This document shows, piece after piece, positions 1,819 to 35,887 of a DNA stretch of 42,190 nucleotides. Origin of the DNA: Rugosibacter sp. (lineage in GTDB: Bacteria > Pseudomonadota > Gammaproteobacteria > Burkholderiales > Rhodocyclaceae); the NCBI GenBank assembly GCA_004322535.1, contig SCUZ01000088.1:1-42190 (forward strand). The letters are read 5' to 3'. Made by a program: the position numbers and the translations under genes. A model generated the notes under the pieces. That model did no database searches, was not told where the DNA came from, and saw only the letters and a program-made list of their open reading frames with translations. The first letter of the stretch is position 1. Each line of letters opens with the position of its first letter.

Positions 1819-2391
1819 TTAGGTCGGATATGAAAAACGTGACCCCTCGGGTTTTTCAAGGAAGTTCCCCCACAACATCCACTCCGATCGATCTAAGGAA
1901 ATTGAGCCGAAGACCCATAAAGCGGCTATGTGTAATGGTGGAACAACAACAGTTTGTGGATCAAAATGCTCCTGTCTATTCAATCGAATAGCCACCGTCA
2001 GATCCTTCGAGTCACCATACTTCTTGAGGGAATCAATTATTTCCTTCAATGACGTAGTGCCGTTGAGGTCCGAGGGAACAACTTCCTTCAGTTGAACAGG
2101 GACAAAGTACTGAACATCTCCCACCACCCAAGCAGCAATGAAGTCGTAGTCTTGCGATTCGCCACGCGCAAGAAAAACCGTTTGCCCAATGCGTTGTCCC
2201 ATACCGTAACAAAAAAGAGCAGCATCTCTTGCCTCTCGCCATTCCTTCAGCTTGTTAGTACGAAGCCCCTTAATCTTTGGATCGAGTACTGATGCAGCTA
2301 GCCGACATTCCAATTCCCCTAACTCAACAAGAAACTGCCTCGGGTCTCGAAACTCGAGGCTTTGGATTGCTCTAAGGCGACTACGATCCAT
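1819..2391 (-). CDS. Hypothetical protein, 190 aa
   Basis: I do not recognise this protein. It is a soluble-looking 190-residue protein with no signal peptide or membrane segment and an ATG start at 2391. One feature is suggestive: residues 78-102 read E-S-Q-D-Y-D-F-I-A-A-W, then a hydrophobic strand ending in V-Q-L-K. The spacing of D83 and Q100-x-K102 resembles the D...(E/Q)xK core of PD-(D/E)XK nuclease folds. That is a weak pattern match, not a functional assignment. It stands alone between convergent ygiQ and the downstream aldolase gene, separated from the aldolase by 83 bases, and codon use looks less GC-biased than its neighbours (many AAA, TTT and ATT codons). This fits an accessory, possibly horizontally acquired gene. 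Confidence 0.6.
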   Translation of the reverse strand: MDRSRLRAIQSLEFRDPRQFLVELGELECRLAASVLDPKIKGLRTNKLKEWREARDAALFCYGMGQRIGQTVFLARGESQDYDFIAAWVVGDVQYFVPVQLKEVVPSDLNGTTSLKEIIDSLKKYGDSKDLTVAIRLNRQEHFDPQTVVVPPLHIAALWVFGSISLDRSEWMLWGNFLEKPEGSRFSYPT

Positions 2392-2474
2392 GATAGAGAC
2401 TCAACGTAACTTATAAAGATTGAAACTTCTTGTCATCTACAGCCTGACACAAGAAATGTTTGACTGAGACAAAC

Positions 2475-3179
2475 TCAAGAACCCGCGTAGCGACCTCTAT
2501 CCTGCTGTCCATATCCAGCAAACTTCACAATCACCTCATCCATCTGTGCCGCTGTCAGCAACTTGGGCGCGCCGAGTTGCAGCACGCGCCAATACTGCTC
2601 GCACAGGGTTTCCAGTTCCACAGCCAGGGCCAGCGCATGGGTGAGGTTCCGGCCGTACACCACCATGCCATGATGCGCCATCAGGCAGGCCGAGCGGTCT
2701 TTTAGCGCAGTGAGCATCGCGTCTGACAAGGCTTGCGTGCCAAAGGTGGCGTAAGCAGCACAACGCACATCCCTGCCGCCAAAACGAGCGATCATGTAAT
2801 GGAATGGCGGGATGTTCTGCTGTTGGCAGGCCAGCGCGGTGGCGAAGGGCGAATGCGCGTGGATGATTGCACCGGCTGCCGGAAATGCCACATAAATATC
2901 GCGATGGAAGCGCCATTCGGATGACGGTTTGCGACGGTTGAGCGGCGAGTTTGGCACACCCGCCGTACCGTCAGCACCGATTTTTATCCCGAGTTTCACC
3001 ATATCGTCCGGCGTGCAGTCTTTATGTTCAATGCCCGTCGGCGTGATGATGAATCCGTCCGCCATGCGCACCGAGACATTCCCCGCACTGCCACGATTCA
3101 GGTCACGAGAAATCAACTCGCCTGCAGTGGCCCGTACGCTGGCGGCAAGCCGTTGCAATTCCTGGCTCAGGTTTTCCAT
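2475..3179 (-). CDS. Class II aldolase, FucA/Ald2-like (methylthioribulose-phosphate aldolase candidate)
   Basis: A 234-residue class II aldolase/adducin family protein. The N-terminal block GSAGNVSVR and ITPTGI, the metal/catalytic motif PSSEWRFH (E88), HAHSP (H107, H109) and AHHGM (H170) line up with E. coli FucA residues E73, H92, H94 and H155 at a constant offset of 15. This is closer to fuculose-1-phosphate aldolase than to the MtnB dehydratase, as I recall those motifs. The gene starts 13 bases inside the 3' end of mtnA, so the two are translationally coupled, and its substrate should be methylthioribulose-1-phosphate. Two activities are possible: MtnB-type dehydration (methionine salvage), or Ald2-type retro-aldol cleavage giving DHAP and a methylthio-aldehyde (DHAP shunt). 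The motifs favour the aldolase; this is inference. Confidence 0.8.
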   Translation of the reverse strand: MENLSQELQRLAASVRATAGELISRDLNRGSAGNVSVRMADGFIITPTGIEHKDCTPDDMVKLGIKIGADGTAGVPNSPLNRRKPSSEWRFHRDIYVAFPAAGAIIHAHSPFATALACQQQNIPPFHYMIARFGGRDVRCAAYATFGTQALSDAMLTALKDRSACLMAHHGMVVYGRNLTHALALAVELETLCEQYWRVLQLGAPKLLTAAQMDEVIVKFAGYGQQDRGRYAGS

Positions 3180-4192
3180 TGGGCTAATTCCTCTGCGGTG
3201 GTTACGCCACGTTCAGAAATGATGCCAGTAATCAGATGCGCCGGCGTGATGTCGAAGGCAGGATTCAGCACCGGCACATTGCCCACGCCCAATTCTGCGG
3301 CGGCGCGTTCTTCAATGGGAATGGCGAAGCCTGCGAGGCAGGAAAAATCAATTGTGGACAACGGCGCGGCGACATAAAACGGCACGCCATGCGCCCGTGC
3401 GGCAAGCGCTTTGAGATAGGTGCCGATCTTGTTGGCCGTGTCGCCATTGGCAGCAATGCGGTCAGCGCCGACAATGAGCAGATCCACCTTGCCCTGCATG
3501 ATCAGCAAACCAGCGGCATTGTCAGCGATCAGCGTGTGCGGCACGCCCGCTTCCGCCAGCTCCCACGCGGTAAGCAACCCCTGATTACGCGGACGGGTTT
3601 CGGAAACCCAGACATGTACGGGAATACCTGCGGCATGTGCAGCATAAATCGGCGCAAGCGCCGTGCCGTGGGCAACCGTCGCCAAACGTCCGGCGTTGCA
3701 GTGGGTCATGATGTGCAGCGCCGCATCGTTTCGCGGGTGCATCGTCAGCATATGCAACCCATGCTCACCGATACTGACGTTGGTGAGCACGTCCTCAGCC
3801 GAAATTGCACGCGCCTCGTGCCAGGCTGTTTCGCGCCGTGTCACCAGCGCCGACTTTTGCAGCACGCGCTGCATGCGGGCCAGCGCCCAATGCAGATTAA
3901 CCGCCGTCGGGCGAGTTGCGGCCAGCAGAGCGATCACCTGCGCCAGCTGGCTGTCCGATGCATCGTGGTTAAGCCCCAGCGCCACACCATAAGCAGCAGT
4001 AACCCCGATCAACGGCGCGCCACGCACCTGCATGCTGCGCAGGGCATGCGCCACATCATCGACGGTGTTCAGGCGCACCTGCACGGCAATCTGCGGCAGG
4101 CGTGTCTGATCCAGAATGAGAACACTGTTACCCGTATTACTCGCGTTGCTCGCGTAATCCTCGACTATCGTCGGATGCAACTGGGTATGCAC
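3167..4192 (-). CDS. mtnA: S-methyl-5-thioribose-1-phosphate isomerase
   Basis: MtnA converts methylthioribose-1-phosphate to methylthioribulose-1-phosphate in salvage of the methylthioadenosine left by polyamine synthesis. The 341-residue protein shows MQVRGAPLIG (residues 54-63), the catalytic cysteine in THCNAG (C165) and the catalytic aspartate in VGADRIAANGD (D244) followed by NKIGTY, all typical of the family. ATG start at 4192; the 3' end overlaps the aldolase gene. Residues about 113-123 (K-S-A-L-V-T-R-R-E-T-A) are encoded by a copy of the dispersed repeat (3826-3858, reverse strand), in a loop between the Arg/Gly-rich block and the H-x-x-D segment. No other mtn genes (phosphorylase, kinase, dioxygenase) are in the window. 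Confidence 0.92.
   Translation of the reverse strand: MHTQLHPTIVEDYASNASNTGNSVLILDQTRLPQIAVQVRLNTVDDVAHALRSMQVRGAPLIGVTAAYGVALGLNHDASDSQLAQVIALLAATRPTAVNLHWALARMQRVLQKSALVTRRETAWHEARAISAEDVLTNVSIGEHGLHMLTMHPRNDAALHIMTHCNAGRLATVAHGTALAPIYAAHAAGIPVHVWVSETRPRNQGLLTAWELAEAGVPHTLIADNAAGLLIMQGKVDLLIVGADRIAANGDTANKIGTYLKALAARAHGVPFYVAAPLSTIDFSCLAGFAIPIEERAAAELGVGNVPVLNPAFDITPAHLITGIISERGVTTAEELAQWKT
3826..3858 (-). repeat. Dispersed repeat, copy inside mtnA
   Basis: On the minus strand it reads AAAAGTCGGCGCTGGTGACA then CGGCGCGAAACAG. The first 16 bases are identical to the copy at 35923, and GTGACACGGCGCGAA resembles the ygiQ tail copy. It is translated as S-A-L-V-T-R-R-E-T-A, the same frame as the MurE tail copy. 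Confidence 0.65.
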
Positions 4193-4211
4193 TGACGTGT
4201 ACGCGGTGGCT

Positions 4212-4233
4212 TAGTTCAACCTAAGTTCAACCT
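4212..4233. repeat. Tandem 11-bp direct repeat between mtnA and secA
   Basis: TAGTTCAACCT is followed directly by AAGTTCAACCT in the 51-base gap between the secA stop and the mtnA start. It would lie in the mtnA upstream region. No function can be assigned; it could be an operator or a slippage product. Confidence 0.5.
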
Positions 4234-4243
4234 TGGCTAAAAC

Positions 4244-6961
4244 TTAGCTCAGCTTGCCGTGGCAATGCTTGTATTTCTTGCCGCTACCGCAAGGGCAAGC
4301 ATCATTACGGCCCACTTTGGGCACGGCATGCACAGGTCGGGGTTTATCAACGACAGCCGCCAGCGCTTCGTCAAGCTCGGAATGATGGTATTCCACATGA
4401 TCAAAATGGGGTGGTTCCTCAATCGCCTCGAGTTGCGCTTCGTCTCGAACTTCAGCCGTCATTAACAGCTTGATGACATCCGCACGCACGGCTTGCAGCA
4501 AACCTTCGAACAGATCAAACGCTTCGCGTTTGTATTCCTGCTTCGGGTTTTTCTGCGCATAACCGCGCAAATGAATGCCCTGGCGCAAATGATCCAGCGC
4601 TGAAAGATGCTCGCGCCAGTGGTTATCAAGGCTTTGCAGCATGACATTGCGCTCGAATCCCGCCCACGCGGCGGCATCCACTGCCACGGTCTTGGCAGCA
4701 TAGGCAGCGTCGGCTGCATCGAGCAAGCGCACAAGTAGCTCATGGTCGGTGAGCAGTGGCTCGGCTTTTAGCCATTCGCCAATGGGCAGTTTCAGCTGCA
4801 GTTCGCCAGCCAGCATATTTTCAAGACCGGCAATATCCCATTGTTCTTCCACACTGCCTTCCGGGATGTAGATACGGAACGTATCGTGAATGGAACCCTG
4901 GCGCATGCCGGTGATTGTTTCGCTGATGTCGCTGCTATCGAGCAATTCATTACGTTGCTGATAGATGACTTTGCGCTGATCGTTGGCAACATCGTCGTAC
5001 TCCAGCAACTGCTTGCGAATATCAAAGTTGCGCTGCTCTACTTTGCGCTGCGCGGATTCCAGCGAACGCGACACCAGCGGATGCTCAATGGCTTCGCCCT
5101 CGGGCATTTTGAGCCGCACCATGATGCTGTTGAGCCGGTCGCCCGCAAAAATCTTCAGCAAGGAATCGTCCAGGGCTAGATAAAAGCGCGATGAACCTGC
5201 ATCGCCCTGCCGCCCGGATCGCCCACGCAGCTGGTTATCAATACGCCGTGATTCATGCCGCTCAGAGCCAATGATATGTAAACCACCCGAAGCCAGCACC
5301 TGATCATGCATGGTTTGCCATTCGGCTTTCATGGTGGCGATGCGCTGCTCTTTTTCTTCAACAGATAAGGCCGCATCTTCCTTGACCGCGTCCAGCATTT
5401 TTTCGATATTGCCGCCCAGCACAATATCGGTACCCCGACCCGCCATGTTGGTCGCAATGGTAATCACGCCCGGGCGACCGGCCTGGGCAATGATTTCCGC
5501 TTCGCGCGCATGCTGCTTGGCATTGAGTACCTGGTGCGGTAGCTTTTCCTTGTCTAGCAGGCTGGAGAGCAATTCGGAATTTTCAATCGACGTGGTGCCA
5601 ACCAGCACCGGCTGCCCCCGCTCTTTACAGCTACGAATGTCAGCAATGATCGCGGTATACTTTTCTTGTGCCGTGCGGTAAATCTGATCATGTTCGTCGC
5701 GCCGGACCATCGGCCGGTTAGTTGGAATGACAACGGTTTCAAGCCCGTATATCTGCTGAAACTCATAGGCTTCCGTATCGGCTGTACCTGTCATGCCGGC
5801 CAACTTGCCGTACATGCGGAAATAATTCTGGAATGTGATTGAAGCGAGCGTTTGGTTTTCGGCCTGGATAGCCACCCCCTCTTTGGCCTCGACTGCCTGA
5901 TGCAGGCCTTCAGACCAGCGCCGCCCGGTCATCAGGCGTCCGGTAAATTCATCAACGATGGTGACTTCACCCTCTTGCACAACATACTGCTGGTCGCGGT
6001 GATACAGATTGTGCGCACGCAATGCAGCATACAAGTGGTGCATGAGCAGAATGTTGGCCGGCTCATACAGGCTGCTACCTTCAGGCAAAAGTCCTAGATG
6101 AGCAAGAATGTTCTCGGCTTTTTCATGTCCCTCATCCGTCAACAATACCTGGTGCGCCTTCAGGTCAACCGTGTAGTCGCCACTGTCTTTTTCAGTATCA
6201 TTTTTGGCCGCTTCACCCAGCGTCAACAGGGGCGGCACGGCGTTCATGGCGACATATAACTCGGTGTGGTCTTCGGCCTGACCGGAAATAATCAATGGCG
6301 TACGCGCCTCATCAATAAGGATCGAATCCACTTCATCGACAATCGCGAAATTCAATCCGCGTTGTACCCGCTCCGCCGGGGAGTACACCATGTTGTCGCG
6401 CAGATAATCAAAGCCGAATTCGTTGTTCGTGCCGTAAGTGATATCCGCTGCATAGGCAGCTTGTTTCGCTTCATGCGGCATTTGCGAAAGATTGATGCCA
6501 ATTGTCAGGCCCAGAAAGCGGTACAGACGGCCCATCCATTCCGCATCACGGCTAGCTAAGTAATCATTCACTGTCACCAGATGAACGCCTTTGCCAGACA
6601 AGGCGTTGAGATAAACAGCCAATGTCGCCGTAAGCGTTTTGCCTTCCCCCGTACGCATTTCGGCAATCTTGCCGTAATGCAACACCATGCCACCTACCAA
6701 TTGCATATCAAAGTGGCGCATTCCCAAGACGCGACGCCCCCCCTCACGCACAACAGCAAATGCTTCAGGCAACAAGGCGTCCAATGACTCGCCCTCGGCA
6801 TGGCGACGACGAAACTCATCCGTTTTCGCTTGTAGTGCAGCATCATCCAGTGCCTGCAATCCACTTTCGAGCGCATTGATTTGTGTAACGCTTTGGCGAT
6901 ATTGCTTGATCAGCCGATCATTGCGGCTGCCAAAAATCTTTCTGAGAAATCCGGAGATCAT
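4244..6961 (-). CDS. secA: Preprotein translocase ATPase SecA
   Basis: SecA is the ATPase motor that drives unfolded preproteins through SecYEG. The 905-residue product has family length and all landmarks: Walker A GEGKT at residues 105-109, the [16 protein letters not shown] Walker B block, the [10 protein letters not shown] helicase motif, and the C-terminal zinc-binding motif C-x-C-x8-C-H ([13 protein letters not shown]) that contacts SecB and phospholipids. ATG start at 6961. It is transcribed away from the dciA-like gene, which suggests promoters for both genes between 6962 and 7174. It ends 51 bases before the mtnA start codon, so mtnA may be partly co-transcribed. Confidence 0.98.
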
Positions 6962-31796: not shown

Positions 31797-33209
31797 TCAC
31801 GAACGCCGTCCGAATGGATGCCGCTGCGCATGACTTTTCAGCAGGTACGACAACACCGGCGGTGTGATCAGCGTAGTAAGAATAACCATGATGACGATGA
31901 CGGAAAACATCGCCTCACTCATCACGCCCAGCTGACGGCCAGTCATGGCGAAGATAAGGCCGACTTCACCGCGCGGCACCATGCCCCAACCCACCAGCCA
32001 GCCACCCGCTTCACGTCCGGCGGCCAATCCCGCCATGAGTTTGCCAATGACTGCGGCGGCAGTCACGCCCAGGCCTACAATGAGCACGGCAGGGTTGGCC
32101 AGCGTTTGCAAATCAACCTGCATGCCGGTGAGCACAAAAAATACCGGCACGAAAAAATAGCCAATGGGTTCGATCAAGTTTTCATGTTGATGACCAGTGT
32201 GCTTGACTAAAACAGCCTTGATCCGAGTAACCAGGTCTGTCTCATTTGCAGATGAATTCGCAGATAAATCGGCTGATGACTGAGCAGGTAAAACCGCTTC
32301 AATATCGCGCACGATGGTCGGGTGCTCGAATTTTTGCAAGAACACGGGCTCGAACAACAAGCCCGCAGCAAACGCACCAATGATCGGCGCCAAACCCATG
32401 ACATGCGCCAGCCACGACAAGGCAAGCGCGGTGGATAGCACCTGGGCAAACAACATCGACGGCCCGGCATCCAGACGCGCCAAGGAATGACTCATCCACG
32501 GCGCAATCAAGCGGCCGATGCCAATGCTGCCGCCAAGAAACAGCAAGGCCTTGGCCAGAATAAGCCCCACCGCACTCGTGCTCACCGTGCCAATAGTCAC
32601 CAGACTGGACACCACGGCAAGAATCACCAGACCCAGCACATCGTCAATCACTGCGGCGCCCAGCACAATGCGCGCGGCGGGTAAATCCAGCTTGCCCATA
32701 TCGCGAAAGACGCGGCCCGTGATACCCACTGAGGTGGCAGACAACGTAGCGCCGAGAAATAGATAGGCATTGACATCTTTTCCCGGCAACAGCCACGGCC
32801 CCACGATCCAGGCGCCCAGCATAAAAGGCATGACGATGCCGATGACACCCACCGCCAAGGCACGCGGGCCAACGGCAACCAAATCTTTTAACTGCGTCTC
32901 CAGCCCGATTTGCAGCAGCAGGATCAGCACGCCCATCTCGGCAATAAAGGCGATGATAGGATCCTGCGTGACACCGCTGAAAAACGAAATGCCGAGCAAG
33001 GATAAATTACCCAGCACCACGCCCAACAGCAGCTCGCCGAGCACGGCCGGAAAGCCAACGCGCTGGGCCAGCGGCGCAAACAGCCGCGCACTCATCAGAA
33101 TCAGCGCCAGCCACAACAAGTTTTCACCCGCGGGAGAACTGGCAGCACCAGCGGCGAAAGCACTGGCGGGGAACAGCAGGGTCAAGCATGGCAATGCGGT
33201 CAGCTTCAA
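31797..33209 (-). CDS. CPA2-family cation:proton antiporter (KefB/GerN-like)
   Basis: A 470-residue protein with about twelve membrane helices, matching monovalent cation:proton antiporter-2 transporters. Visible family signatures are FPAVLGELLLGVVLGNL, GATLSATSVGITGRVFRD (the unwound helix with T-x-x-V-G-I-T), VIDDVLGLVILAVV with the ion-binding Asp pair, and A-P-I-I-G-A-F-A-A-G-L. No TrkA-N domain is present at the C terminus, so it is the short form. A signal-like hydrophobic N terminus precedes helix 1. A 7-bp hairpin lies just before its start. About 21 bases from its 5' end recur in the pseudogene upstream (see findings). It is convergent with the sorbosone-dehydrogenase-like gene. Confidence 0.9.
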   Translation of the reverse strand: MKLTALPCLTLLFPASAFAAGAASSPAGENLLWLALILMSARLFAPLAQRVGFPAVLGELLLGVVLGNLSLLGISFFSGVTQDPIIAFIAEMGVLILLLQIGLETQLKDLVAVGPRALAVGVIGIVMPFMLGAWIVGPWLLPGKDVNAYLFLGATLSATSVGITGRVFRDMGKLDLPAARIVLGAAVIDDVLGLVILAVVSSLVTIGTVSTSAVGLILAKALLFLGGSIGIGRLIAPWMSHSLARLDAGPSMLFAQVLSTALALSWLAHVMGLAPIIGAFAAGLLFEPVFLQKFEHPTIVRDIEAVLPAQSSADLSANSSANETDLVTRIKAVLVKHTGHQHENLIEPIGYFFVPVFFVLTGMQVDLQTLANPAVLIVGLGVTAAAVIGKLMAGLAAGREAGGWLVGWGMVPRGEVGLIFAMTGRQLGVMSEAMFSVIVIMVILTTLITPPVLSYLLKSHAQRHPFGRRS

Positions 33210-33219
33210 GTTTTCTCCT

Positions 33220-33239
33220 CGACATGAACTGGCATGTCG
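33220..33239 (-). other. Inverted repeat upstream of the antiporter start
   Basis: CGACATG and CATGTCG form a 7-bp stem with a 6-base loop, 10 bases before the antiporter start codon. It could cover the ribosome site or act as an operator; the sequence alone does not say which. Confidence 0.4.
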
Positions 33240-33316
33240 TCATCCTGCAGGTGAATCAAGGGGTGCATCAATCGGGCTGAATCATAGCCGAAGCACGTCG
33301 TGCGACATGCAGCACC

Positions 33317-33737
33317 TTATCGCATTGCCATCATGCCCCATTCTGGCTGGCATACAACCAGCCGCGCGCCCATCAGAATCAGCGCCAGCCATTTCTCGAT
33401 TTCCACACCAACAAACACGACCGAAGACAAGGCCAGGCACAGGGCCAACCCATCCATGCCGAGTGGTTCGGTCTTGAAAATCGGGTTCAACCAAGGCACA
33501 TAGAGCAGCGCCAGTCGCAGGTAGAAGGTAAGCAGCACGGCATACAGCAGCATGCTGTTGGACAACGCACTCTGAGCGGGCAGCGACTCGCGCTCGGAAC
33601 GAATGGCCCAGGCCTGCGTCAGCGCCCATCGGCAGCCCCATCCAGTCACGGCTGAGGCCACTTTTTTCAGCGATGATGTCACCATAGCGCGAAAGCTTGA
33701 TGCCGGCCACGACGATGATCGCAAGCAATGCAGCCAA
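33317..33737 (-). pseudogene. Mosaic transporter pseudogene (three gene fragments)
   Basis: Three pieces follow one another on the minus strand. (a) 33737 to ~33640 encodes I-V-V-A-G-I-K-L-S-R-Y-G-D-I-I-A-E-K then a G-L-x-x-x-W-M-G-L segment, as in the N terminus of sodium:calcium-type antiporters. (b) From ~33640 to ~33395, in another frame, comes A-I-R-S-E-R-E then L-R-L-A-L-L-Y-V-P-W-L-N and V-E-I-E-K-W, as in the C-terminal membrane end of cation P-type ATPases. (c) From ~33391 the frame continues as W-L-A-L-I-L-M-G-A-R-L, copied from the start of the adjacent CPA2 antiporter, ending at TAA 33317-33319. Family names for (a) and (b) are from memory of conserved motifs; that the locus is broken is clear from the frame change. 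Confidence 0.6.
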
Positions 33738-33865
33738 TACACACCCTCATGTAGAAAGTCGGCTTTCGCAAGACGCCGCGCAGCCAGTCCCGTTGGGGAC
33801 GGCGGCAGCAGGGCATTGTGGTGTATCGCACTTAACCGTCACGCCCCATCCGTTACAATCGGCTG

Positions 33866-35887
33866 ATGCTGAAAACCGATATGATTACCGTTCTCGAACG
33901 CCCTTACGCTAACACGCCTGAGGGTGCTTTGCGATTTTTCATTTCCCTGGTTGATGCCATTCGCCCCAGTGATCCCCATAGCACCGAGGCTGCAACGGCG
34001 GTATTTACAACCTTGCGCGACATCGCAGCGGGCAATGAAAAACATCGTACCACGCTGCGGTGCCAGGTGCAGCAGCTCTTTCGTGGAACCCAGCAGGTCA
34101 GCCTTTACACCGATGCGGGCATCCTGCCGAACTCCGGATTTTTCAGTGAGCTGTGGCGCCGCGCCATGGGCCGGATACTGCCCCCGGTACCCGATGCCGC
34201 ACGGCTCAAGGACTGTTTCGATGCGGTGTTCCATGACCGCGATGACCATGTCTGGCTGGCAGCAGGGCCGCTCGAGGACAAGCTGGCTTTGTGGGATGCT
34301 GTGTTCAGCATGGCTGCGGACTCTGAAATCGACGCAAGCAATGAAGAACGATGGCAATTGCACACCGAAGCGCAACTGCTCGAGGCCATGCAGGTACTGG
34401 CCACGCGCATCGGCGCGATGGGGCTGGAACCCGAACTGACGCGCGTGCAGCCGCGCATCATCGAATTCGAATCGCCGTTCGTGCATCTGAATGCGGAGGT
34501 GTTGCGCTTTACCGAAGCCTGGCGGGCGCACCATGCCGATCCCTCGACCGAACACGAGGATGAACTGCACATGATGGTGCTGGTCGATCAGTGCCGCGAG
34601 GTGATAGCCCGTGCGCGGCGCAACGCCGCCAGCGAGGGCACCAGCCTCAGCCTCACCTATCTGCTGGTACGCACGGAACAATGCCTGCAAAGGCTGGTGC
34701 AGCTTACCGGCGTACTGTGCGCACGTTTCCAGCCTGATATGCGCAGAGCTATGGTCGACCGCTGGGTACGCCTGACGCATGATCTGGTGCAGGGAGAAAA
34801 TCGCCGCCACAGCGTGCGTGAGCCCTTCAGCCGCCTCACCGGCCTGCTCGCGCTGCGCGTGACTGAAAATTCTCACCGAACCGGCGAACACTATATAACG
34901 ACCACTCCTGCCGAGTATGCTGCCATGTGGCGGTCGGCCGCTGGGGGTGGTTTCGTCGTCGGCTTCATGGCACTCATCAAGCTGTTGCTGGGCAAGTTCA
35001 TTTTTGCGCCGTTCGTCTATGTGTTTATGCATAGCATGAACTATTCGCTTGGCTTCGTGCTGATGCATATACTGAACTTTACCCTGGCCACCAAGCAGCC
35101 AGCCATGACTGCTGCCACCATCGCCAAGAGTATTGATCAATCGGAGGGAAAAACGCGGGACTTGCACCGTCTCGCCGACCTGGTAGTCGCCATGATGCGT
35201 AGCCAGTTCGCGGCCATTGCGGGCAACGTGGCGGTGACCATCCCGACCGCTATTGCCATCGCATTTGTCTACCACTGGATCATCGGCCATCCCGCCATGG
35301 ATCTGGCCAAAGCGCAACACACGCTGCATGATCTCTCACCCATCGCGAGCCTCGCCATCCCGCATGCGGCGCTGACCGGCATCCTGCTTTTTCTTGCCGG
35401 GCTGCTGTCCGGTTTTTTCGACAACAAAGCGGCTTATGACCGCATCCCGGAACGCATCGCCCATCTTGGCTGGCTGCGCCGCCTGATCGGCCCGCAGCGC
35501 GCCGACCGTTTTGCCGATTACATCGGACGCAATCTGGGCAGCCTCGCCGGCAACTTTTTGCTGGGGATCATGCTGGCAAGCCTGGCGCCTCTTGGAGACT
35601 TTCTCGGCTTGCCGCTGGATGTGCGCCACGTGACCCTGTCCTCGGCCAATTTCGCCCTCGCCTTGACCTCACTAAATTTTCACATCGATCCATTCACCCT
35701 CGTCGAAACGCTGGCGGGCATCGCGCTGGTAGGCTTTACCAATCTCTCTGTCAGCTTTGCCCTCGCCTTATGGGTGGCGCTCAAGGCGCGAGGAGCGGAC
35801 ATCACCGCCAGCCAGGGGCTTATCGCGCTTTTGCTGGAACGCGTTCGCAAAGAACCCGCACGTTTTTTTGTGCCGCCGCCCTCTTAA
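33866..35887 (+). CDS. Gcr-type membrane protein annotated as 'site-specific recombinase'
   Basis: A 673-residue protein of the family usually labelled 'site-specific recombinase, Gcr' in betaproteobacteria (SpecificRecomb). The N-terminal ~340 residues are soluble and helical. The C-terminal half carries several membrane helices, starting with the segment W-R-S-A-A-G-G-G-F-V-V-G-F-M-A-L (about residue 354 onward) and including L-I-K-L-L-L-G-K-F-I-F-A-P-F, the N-F-T-L-A-T-K-Q-P-A-M-T block, F-L-A-G-L-L-S-G-F-F-D-N-K-A-A-Y and a final pair around L-A-G-I-A-L-V-G-F-T-N-L. The membrane topology makes a recombinase activity doubtful; the family name is historical. ATG 33866 is chosen; the ATG at 33881 is an alternative. 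It precedes uvrD by 115 bases. Confidence 0.75.
   Translation: MLKTDMITVLERPYANTPEGALRFFISLVDAIRPSDPHSTEAATAVFTTLRDIAAGNEKHRTTLRCQVQQLFRGTQQVSLYTDAGILPNSGFFSELWRRAMGRILPPVPDAARLKDCFDAVFHDRDDHVWLAAGPLEDKLALWDAVFSMAADSEIDASNEERWQLHTEAQLLEAMQVLATRIGAMGLEPELTRVQPRIIEFESPFVHLNAEVLRFTEAWRAHHADPSTEHEDELHMMVLVDQCREVIARARRNAASEGTSLSLTYLLVRTEQCLQRLVQLTGVLCARFQPDMRRAMVDRWVRLTHDLVQGENRRHSVREPFSRLTGLLALRVTENSHRTGEHYITTTPAEYAAMWRSAAGGGFVVGFMALIKLLLGKFIFAPFVYVFMHSMNYSLGFVLMHILNFTLATKQPAMTAATIAKSIDQSEGKTRDLHRLADLVVAMMRSQFAAIAGNVAVTIPTAIAIAFVYHWIIGHPAMDLAKAQHTLHDLSPIASLAIPHAALTGILLFLAGLLSGFFDNKAAYDRIPERIAHLGWLRRLIGPQRADRFADYIGRNLGSLAGNFLLGIMLASLAPLGDFLGLPLDVRHVTLSSANFALALTSLNFHIDPFTLVETLAGIALVGFTNLSVSFALALWVALKARGADITASQGLIALLLERVRKEPARFFVPPPS

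Follow-up and report, generated by a model that had tools for sequence, protein, structure and literature searches.

A probable relic of an antiporter and P-type ATPase operon with a short patch matching the neighbouring Kef-type gene in Rugosibacter sp.

In the stretch of Rugosibacter sp. DNA analysed here (42,190 nucleotides of contig SCUZ01000088.1, referred to as the window), pieces resembling several ion-transport genes lie between two intact genes, which raises the question of which genes these pieces derive from and how they came to be joined. The sequence at 33345-33745 is very probably what is left of an antiporter-ATPase operon after a decay dominated by deletions between short repeats, with a patch of about 20 bases copied into it from the neighbouring Kef-type gene.

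On the minus strand, the interval is bordered by an intact gene encoding a Kef/CPA2-type monovalent cation:proton antiporter of 470 aa (31797-33209; PF00999, E 1.1e-53), the putative donor of the patch, which also matched the CPA2 model TIGR00932 with an E of 3.7e-40, yet below the model cut-off. The 3' end of this gene (31797-31842) overlaps a short stretch that is repeated elsewhere in the same genome and in relatives. On the other side lies the intact PF10136 (SpecificRecomb) gene (33866-35887, plus strand; E 1.6e-219), the syntenic anchor with loci L024 and L025 of two relatives, and next to it a conserved leader between two divergent genes (33740-33860; 86% identity over 123 nt to L024 2204-2326). 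About 50 nt of the leader (33755-33807) also occur at C29:36216-36267 in the same genome with 80-83% identity, and likewise at 80-83% in G005, G006 and G007; the palindromic core of this stretch has no further copy in the window's own genome at up to 3 mismatches.

The interval itself carries, on the minus strand, the 5' remnant of a sodium/calcium-type antiporter gene (33633-33745; 80% identity over 113 nt to L024 2405-2517), of which about 35 codons remain compared with L024, and the 3' end of a P-type ATPase gene (33385-33608; 83% over 224 nt to L024 5776-5999), corresponding to about 75 codons before the patch. The antiporter protein of the relative G005 matched the minus strand at 33624-33755 with 68% identity (E 3.2e-13) and one internal stop, and the Pfam domain Cation_ATPase_C was detected in residues 41-119 of a 141-aa open reading frame (33317-33742; E 1.3e-15), covering profile positions 97-175 of 175. 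Both the sodium:calcium-antiporter-like start and the P-type-ATPase end recognised by an earlier, sequence-only reading are therefore confirmed.

The corresponding intact genes were found in relatives, as that reading had anticipated. When locus pieces were searched at the DNA level in 61 genomes, the ATPase and antiporter pieces were matched in the same-genus genomes G005 and G006, and a further six genomes, not of this genus (G012, G018, G036, G041, G047 and G052), matched the ATPase piece only and less strongly. The order in G005 (locus L024) is intact, with the SpecificRecomb gene, some of which is masked as N, divergent to the antiporter gene (2383-3399), which overlaps the ATPase gene (3389-6034). 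The antiporter of 338 aa belongs to the sodium/calcium exchanger family PF01699 (E 2.4e-27), and the P-type ATPase of 881 aa matched PF00122, PF00689, PF00690 and two more Pfam families. The best NCBIfam models of this ATPase are the calcium ATPases TIGR01522 and TIGR01116, both below their curated cut-offs; with the NCBIfam cut-offs for calcium pumps and calcium/sodium antiporters not reached by the L024 proteins, these are assigned to Pfam families and not to a particular ion. The L024 genes are thus intact members of the PF01699 exchangers and the P-type cation ATPases (PF00689, PF00122), unlike the window, which has relics only. In G006 (L025), the same gene pair lies on the same side of the SpecificRecomb gene, with a sulfate-permease remnant in between (L025 6530-7126). 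As the sulfate permease next to the SpecificRecomb gene of G007 is full-length (L123 853-2571), this is a parallel instance of a transporter decaying at this position.

A scan of a genome collection with the ATPase protein gave 595 loci, of which the best 80 were kept, a selection that may lack the window's own species; at 12 of these 80 the antiporter-ATPase pair was also present (tblastn, E 1e-15 or better) in the same order and strand. Since the pair is intact in G005 and G006 and stands together at these 12 loci, it is most simply taken as the ancestral state and the window as derived from it. Elsewhere in the window's own genome no intact pair was found, the other ATPases (E 1e-60 or better) being only 36-37% identical, and the antiporter search at E 1e-5 or better returned a single match, the relic. 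The proposal that the region was built from three transporters does not hold, because two of the pieces are the ends of one operon that is intact in G005 and G006, and the third is an internal patch.

Within the genus, the SpecificRecomb gene was present in seven of nine genomes, the Kef-type gene in six and the intact antiporter of the pair in two (own genome included; the relic and a 30% identical match in G002 left out of the antiporter count), counts that are limited by a draft completeness of 60-100%. The relic was absent from all eight other genus genomes searched. In G007 and G001, the SpecificRecomb and Kef-type genes likewise point away from each other, separated by about 6.2 and 5.5 kb that hold other genes, and the Kef-type gene of G006 is located on a different contig behind a different gene. 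In the sister genome G004 (91% complete), the antiporter-ATPase operon was not found; no antiporter of the pair was detected, and the best match to the ATPase of the pair was 37% identical. A different P-type ATPase (L026 3236-3730) ends directly upstream of the SpecificRecomb gene in G004, in the place that the pair occupies in G005 and G006. The patchy spread of the pair across the genus genomes suggests that it was lost or degraded more than once, or gained unevenly.

Piecewise alignment of the window with L024 revealed four deletions, of 84 nt, about 3.1 kb (3145 nt), 11 nt and 78 nt. The 84-nt deletion (junction at 33740-33745, minus strand; TGGTGTGCC occurs twice in L024, 84 nt apart) removed the antiporter start codon. 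The 3145-nt deletion (33633-33644, minus strand; TGGGTGGGGCTG occurs in both L024 genes, 3145 nt apart) fuses the antiporter gene to the ATPase gene, and this fusion is in frame because WVGL is coded on both sides in each gene's own reading frame. Just past the fusion, within about 20 nt, the 11-nt deletion in the ATPase piece (somewhere in 33611-33630, minus strand) alters the frame, and the 78-nt deletion (33600-33608, minus strand; GGCCATCCG occurs twice in L024, 78 nt apart) is in frame. The antiporter start had been described as joined to the ATPase out of frame; the loss of frame is real and comes from the separate 11-nt deletion, and the join itself preserves the frame. Given these inactivating lesions, the intact syntenic pair in relatives and the lack of an intact copy elsewhere in its own genome, the region is best classed, on comparative sequence grounds, as a pseudogene of a sodium/calcium-type antiporter and P-type ATPase operon, as had been proposed, and is presumably without function. 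No single known family was found to cover all three segments without a frame change.

Direct repeats of 9, 12 and 9 nt are present in L024 at the sites of the 84-nt, 3145-nt and 78-nt deletions, with one copy kept in the window, and the repeat check against L024 found no direct repeat at the ends of the 11-nt deletion. Of 20,000 random site pairs scored by the same measure (the longest shared run within 20 nt in any register), 251 shared a run of at least 9 nt and one a run of at least 12 nt. Under a control stricter than the observed measure, in which runs had to cross the exact breakpoint, the junction lengths of the 84-nt, 3145-nt and 78-nt deletions were reached in 26, 0 and 28 of 200,000 draws, respectively. 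With the fairer of the two controls, the first, a lone 9-nt junction is moderately unusual, and this, together with the 11-nt deletion that lacks a repeat, slightly weakens the repeat model, which does not cover every deletion. The three repeat-flanked deletions resemble slipped misalignment; the locus differs from it in the fourth deletion and in that the ancestor is a proxy, namely G005, which is about 80-86% identical in pieces, so that breakpoints and microhomology lengths are estimates.

The third piece lies within the ATPase tail. The DNA said to be shared between 33361-33391 and 33083-33113 is real and extends further: in a self-comparison of the window, 33077-33113 and 33355-33391 were alike at 34 of 37 bases (92%), in the same orientation and 278 nt apart. 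The first of these copies contains the donor segment of the Kef-type gene (33081-33113, minus strand), identified from the repeat match and an antiporter comparison and coding for WLALILMSARL, and the second is the copied patch in the ATPase tail (33355-33391, minus strand). Their contiguous exact core of 21 nt, TGGCTGGCGCTGATTCTGATG on the minus strand, lies at 33371-33391 in the patch and is the sole exact direct repeat of at least 16 nt within 500 nt in the whole window. No exact direct 21-mer at this spacing appeared in any of 300 third-order Markov windows of equal length. When distance is disregarded, only two other exact direct repeats of at least 20 nt are present in the window, 253-273/1593-1613, which contains the small palindrome TCCCGCAGGGA, and 18747-18766/22924-22943.

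A search of the window's own genome (2.57 Mb) with 33205-33865 as the query returned three places, namely the query itself, the Kef-type match (E 6.7e-8) and a leader-only match (E 1.8e-5). The 21-mer at up to 3 mismatches occurred at four sites in this genome, two exact (patch and donor) and two with 3 mismatches, and a control with the 21-mer read backwards gave 0 sites. With no third exact copy in the 2.57 Mb, the neighbouring antiporter gene is the only exact donor in the genome, which supports the earlier view that a short piece was copied from it. The three differences in 37 between the patch and the present donor are taken as later point mutations or recipient bases. Counting the four deletions and one templated patch, the locus exceeds the minimum of two illegitimate joining events that had been suggested.

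The direction of copying was examined in related proteins. A donor-like segment was present in all 11 antiporter sequences compared, including that of the window, and was exactly WLALILMSARL in six. LALILM occurred in the final 40 residues of none of 84 ATPase rows, which include repeats of one gene (L024/L031 and L025/L032/L039) and in which tails were ended at the first stop after the match start, at least one of them (L059) not being a C-terminus. Among the 45 rows listed in full, the closest ATPases (L024, L025, L043, L044 and L045) have a tail of EK, two residues and VRRGWLY. The window instead reads EKWL, then ALILMGARL, followed by DNA that again resembles the L024 tail (GGCTGGTTGTATGC in both). 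In the alignment with L024, the right-hand microhomology GCGCGGCTG is followed by the ATPase tail as GGTTGTATGC (33349-33367, minus strand), and GGTTGTATGC followed by CAGAA matches the L024 tail, a resumed match that is short, about 10 nt beyond the part common with the donor. Because the ATPase tail resumes after it, the third piece is a patch inside this tail and not a segment joined at its end. The net gain at the patch is about 13 nt, and the frame is therefore shifted here too.

This resumption also bears on the idea that the ATPase gene was formerly followed at once by a further Kef-type gene, such as a tandem duplicate, of which fusion and deletion spared a short N-terminal piece. The piece does adjoin the intact Kef-type gene in the same orientation, but the ATPase's own tail continues past it, and a Kef-type flank match (tblastn, E 1e-15 or better) was found at 0 of the best 80 of 595 ATPase loci, some of whose flanks stop at contig ends; we consider this origin improbable.

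In both the window and the donor, the patch is bounded by TGGCTGG on the left and GCGCGGCTG on the right. The recipient ends before the event are known from the relatives L024 and L045 alone: on the left, TGGCTGG occurs in L045 only and TGGATGG, with one mismatch, in L024; on the right, both have GCGTGGCTG, which in L024 differs from GCGCGGCTG by one mismatch. Because the patch starts and ends at the shared TGGCTGG and GCGCGGCTG, its likely origin is a template switch in two steps or short-patch double illegitimate recombination. RecA is generally held to need longer homology than about 7 and 5-9 nt. The flanking homology before the event would have been just that, about 7 and 5-9 nt, which makes ectopic gene conversion through RecA, with the antiporter gene as donor and in place of microhomology template switching, a similarly poor candidate, even though copying appears one-way and the donor segment is conserved across antiporters.

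The genome assembly is in draft form, with 115 contigs, and an assembly artefact or chance similarity was also considered. The two copies differ (34/37) and each lies within its own alignable context, the leader and the SpecificRecomb gene are colinear with G005, and the own-genome search, the 21-mer counts and the Markov windows make chance very unlikely, so this explanation has very little probability. No more credible is a functional small membrane protein derived from the relic and encoded by the 141-aa frame, which is uninterrupted and spans part of the Cation_ATPase_C profile, but whose first ~40 residues are translated from antiporter DNA in another frame, whose antiporter start codon is deleted and whose source, the relic, is absent from the eight other genus genomes.

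Two further repeat features were set aside as causes of the rearrangement. Dispersed palindromic repeats were rejected, as neither motif amounts to a large family when up to 3 mismatches are allowed: the motif at 33783-33803 has a single copy in the window's own genome at this threshold, and that at 31801-31824 has two copies there and one in G004, with pattern copies in G000 and G004 only. The inverted repeat 33188-33203/33316-33331 around the start of the Kef-type gene (imperfect, 16 nt, 88%) is a weak candidate for a second templated event and was set aside because exact inverted 11-mers 21-150 nt apart number four in the window, itself included.

The most probable history is that of a single operon. 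An ancestral antiporter-ATPase operon, lying on the minus strand and transcribed away from the SpecificRecomb gene, decayed chiefly via deletions between short direct repeats, of the kind that slippage during replication or another misalignment without RecA would produce. At some point in relation to this decay, be it earlier, later or in its course, about 20 bases from the Kef-type gene 278 bases away probably took the place of a few bases in the ATPase tail, the copying entering at the common TGGCTGG and leaving at the common GCGCGGCTG. It is doubtful, though somewhat less so than the alternatives above, that ion-transport genes turn over fast in the interval between the SpecificRecomb and Kef-type genes in the genus and that patch and deletions arose in one complex template-switching event during fork repair, not as separate accidents.

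In short-patch double illegitimate recombination (SPDIR), a short segment is replaced by a template from the same genome, with microhomologies on both sides and clustered changes. The process was reportedly described by Harms et al. in PNAS in 2016. The patch in the window is likewise short, apparently templated from the same genome and probably bounded by microhomology; it differs in being deduced from a comparison of species, not from a laboratory lineage, and in having its donor just 278 nt away. The Harms et al. paper is cited in PMC8116780, and the titles of PMC4627823 and PMC11276467 concern rearrangement between repeats in Deinococcus radiodurans. Among the matches listed for literature on template switching, repeats, short patches, SPDIR and microhomologies, no title concerned short templated patches in bacteria.

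The locus is a well-resolved, base-level case of gene decay by known processes and changes no open question. As a clean record from nature and not from laboratory strains, it combines deletions mediated by repeats with a short patch taken from a neighbouring gene and apparently flanked by microhomology, and could provide one data point on the decay of bacterial genes.
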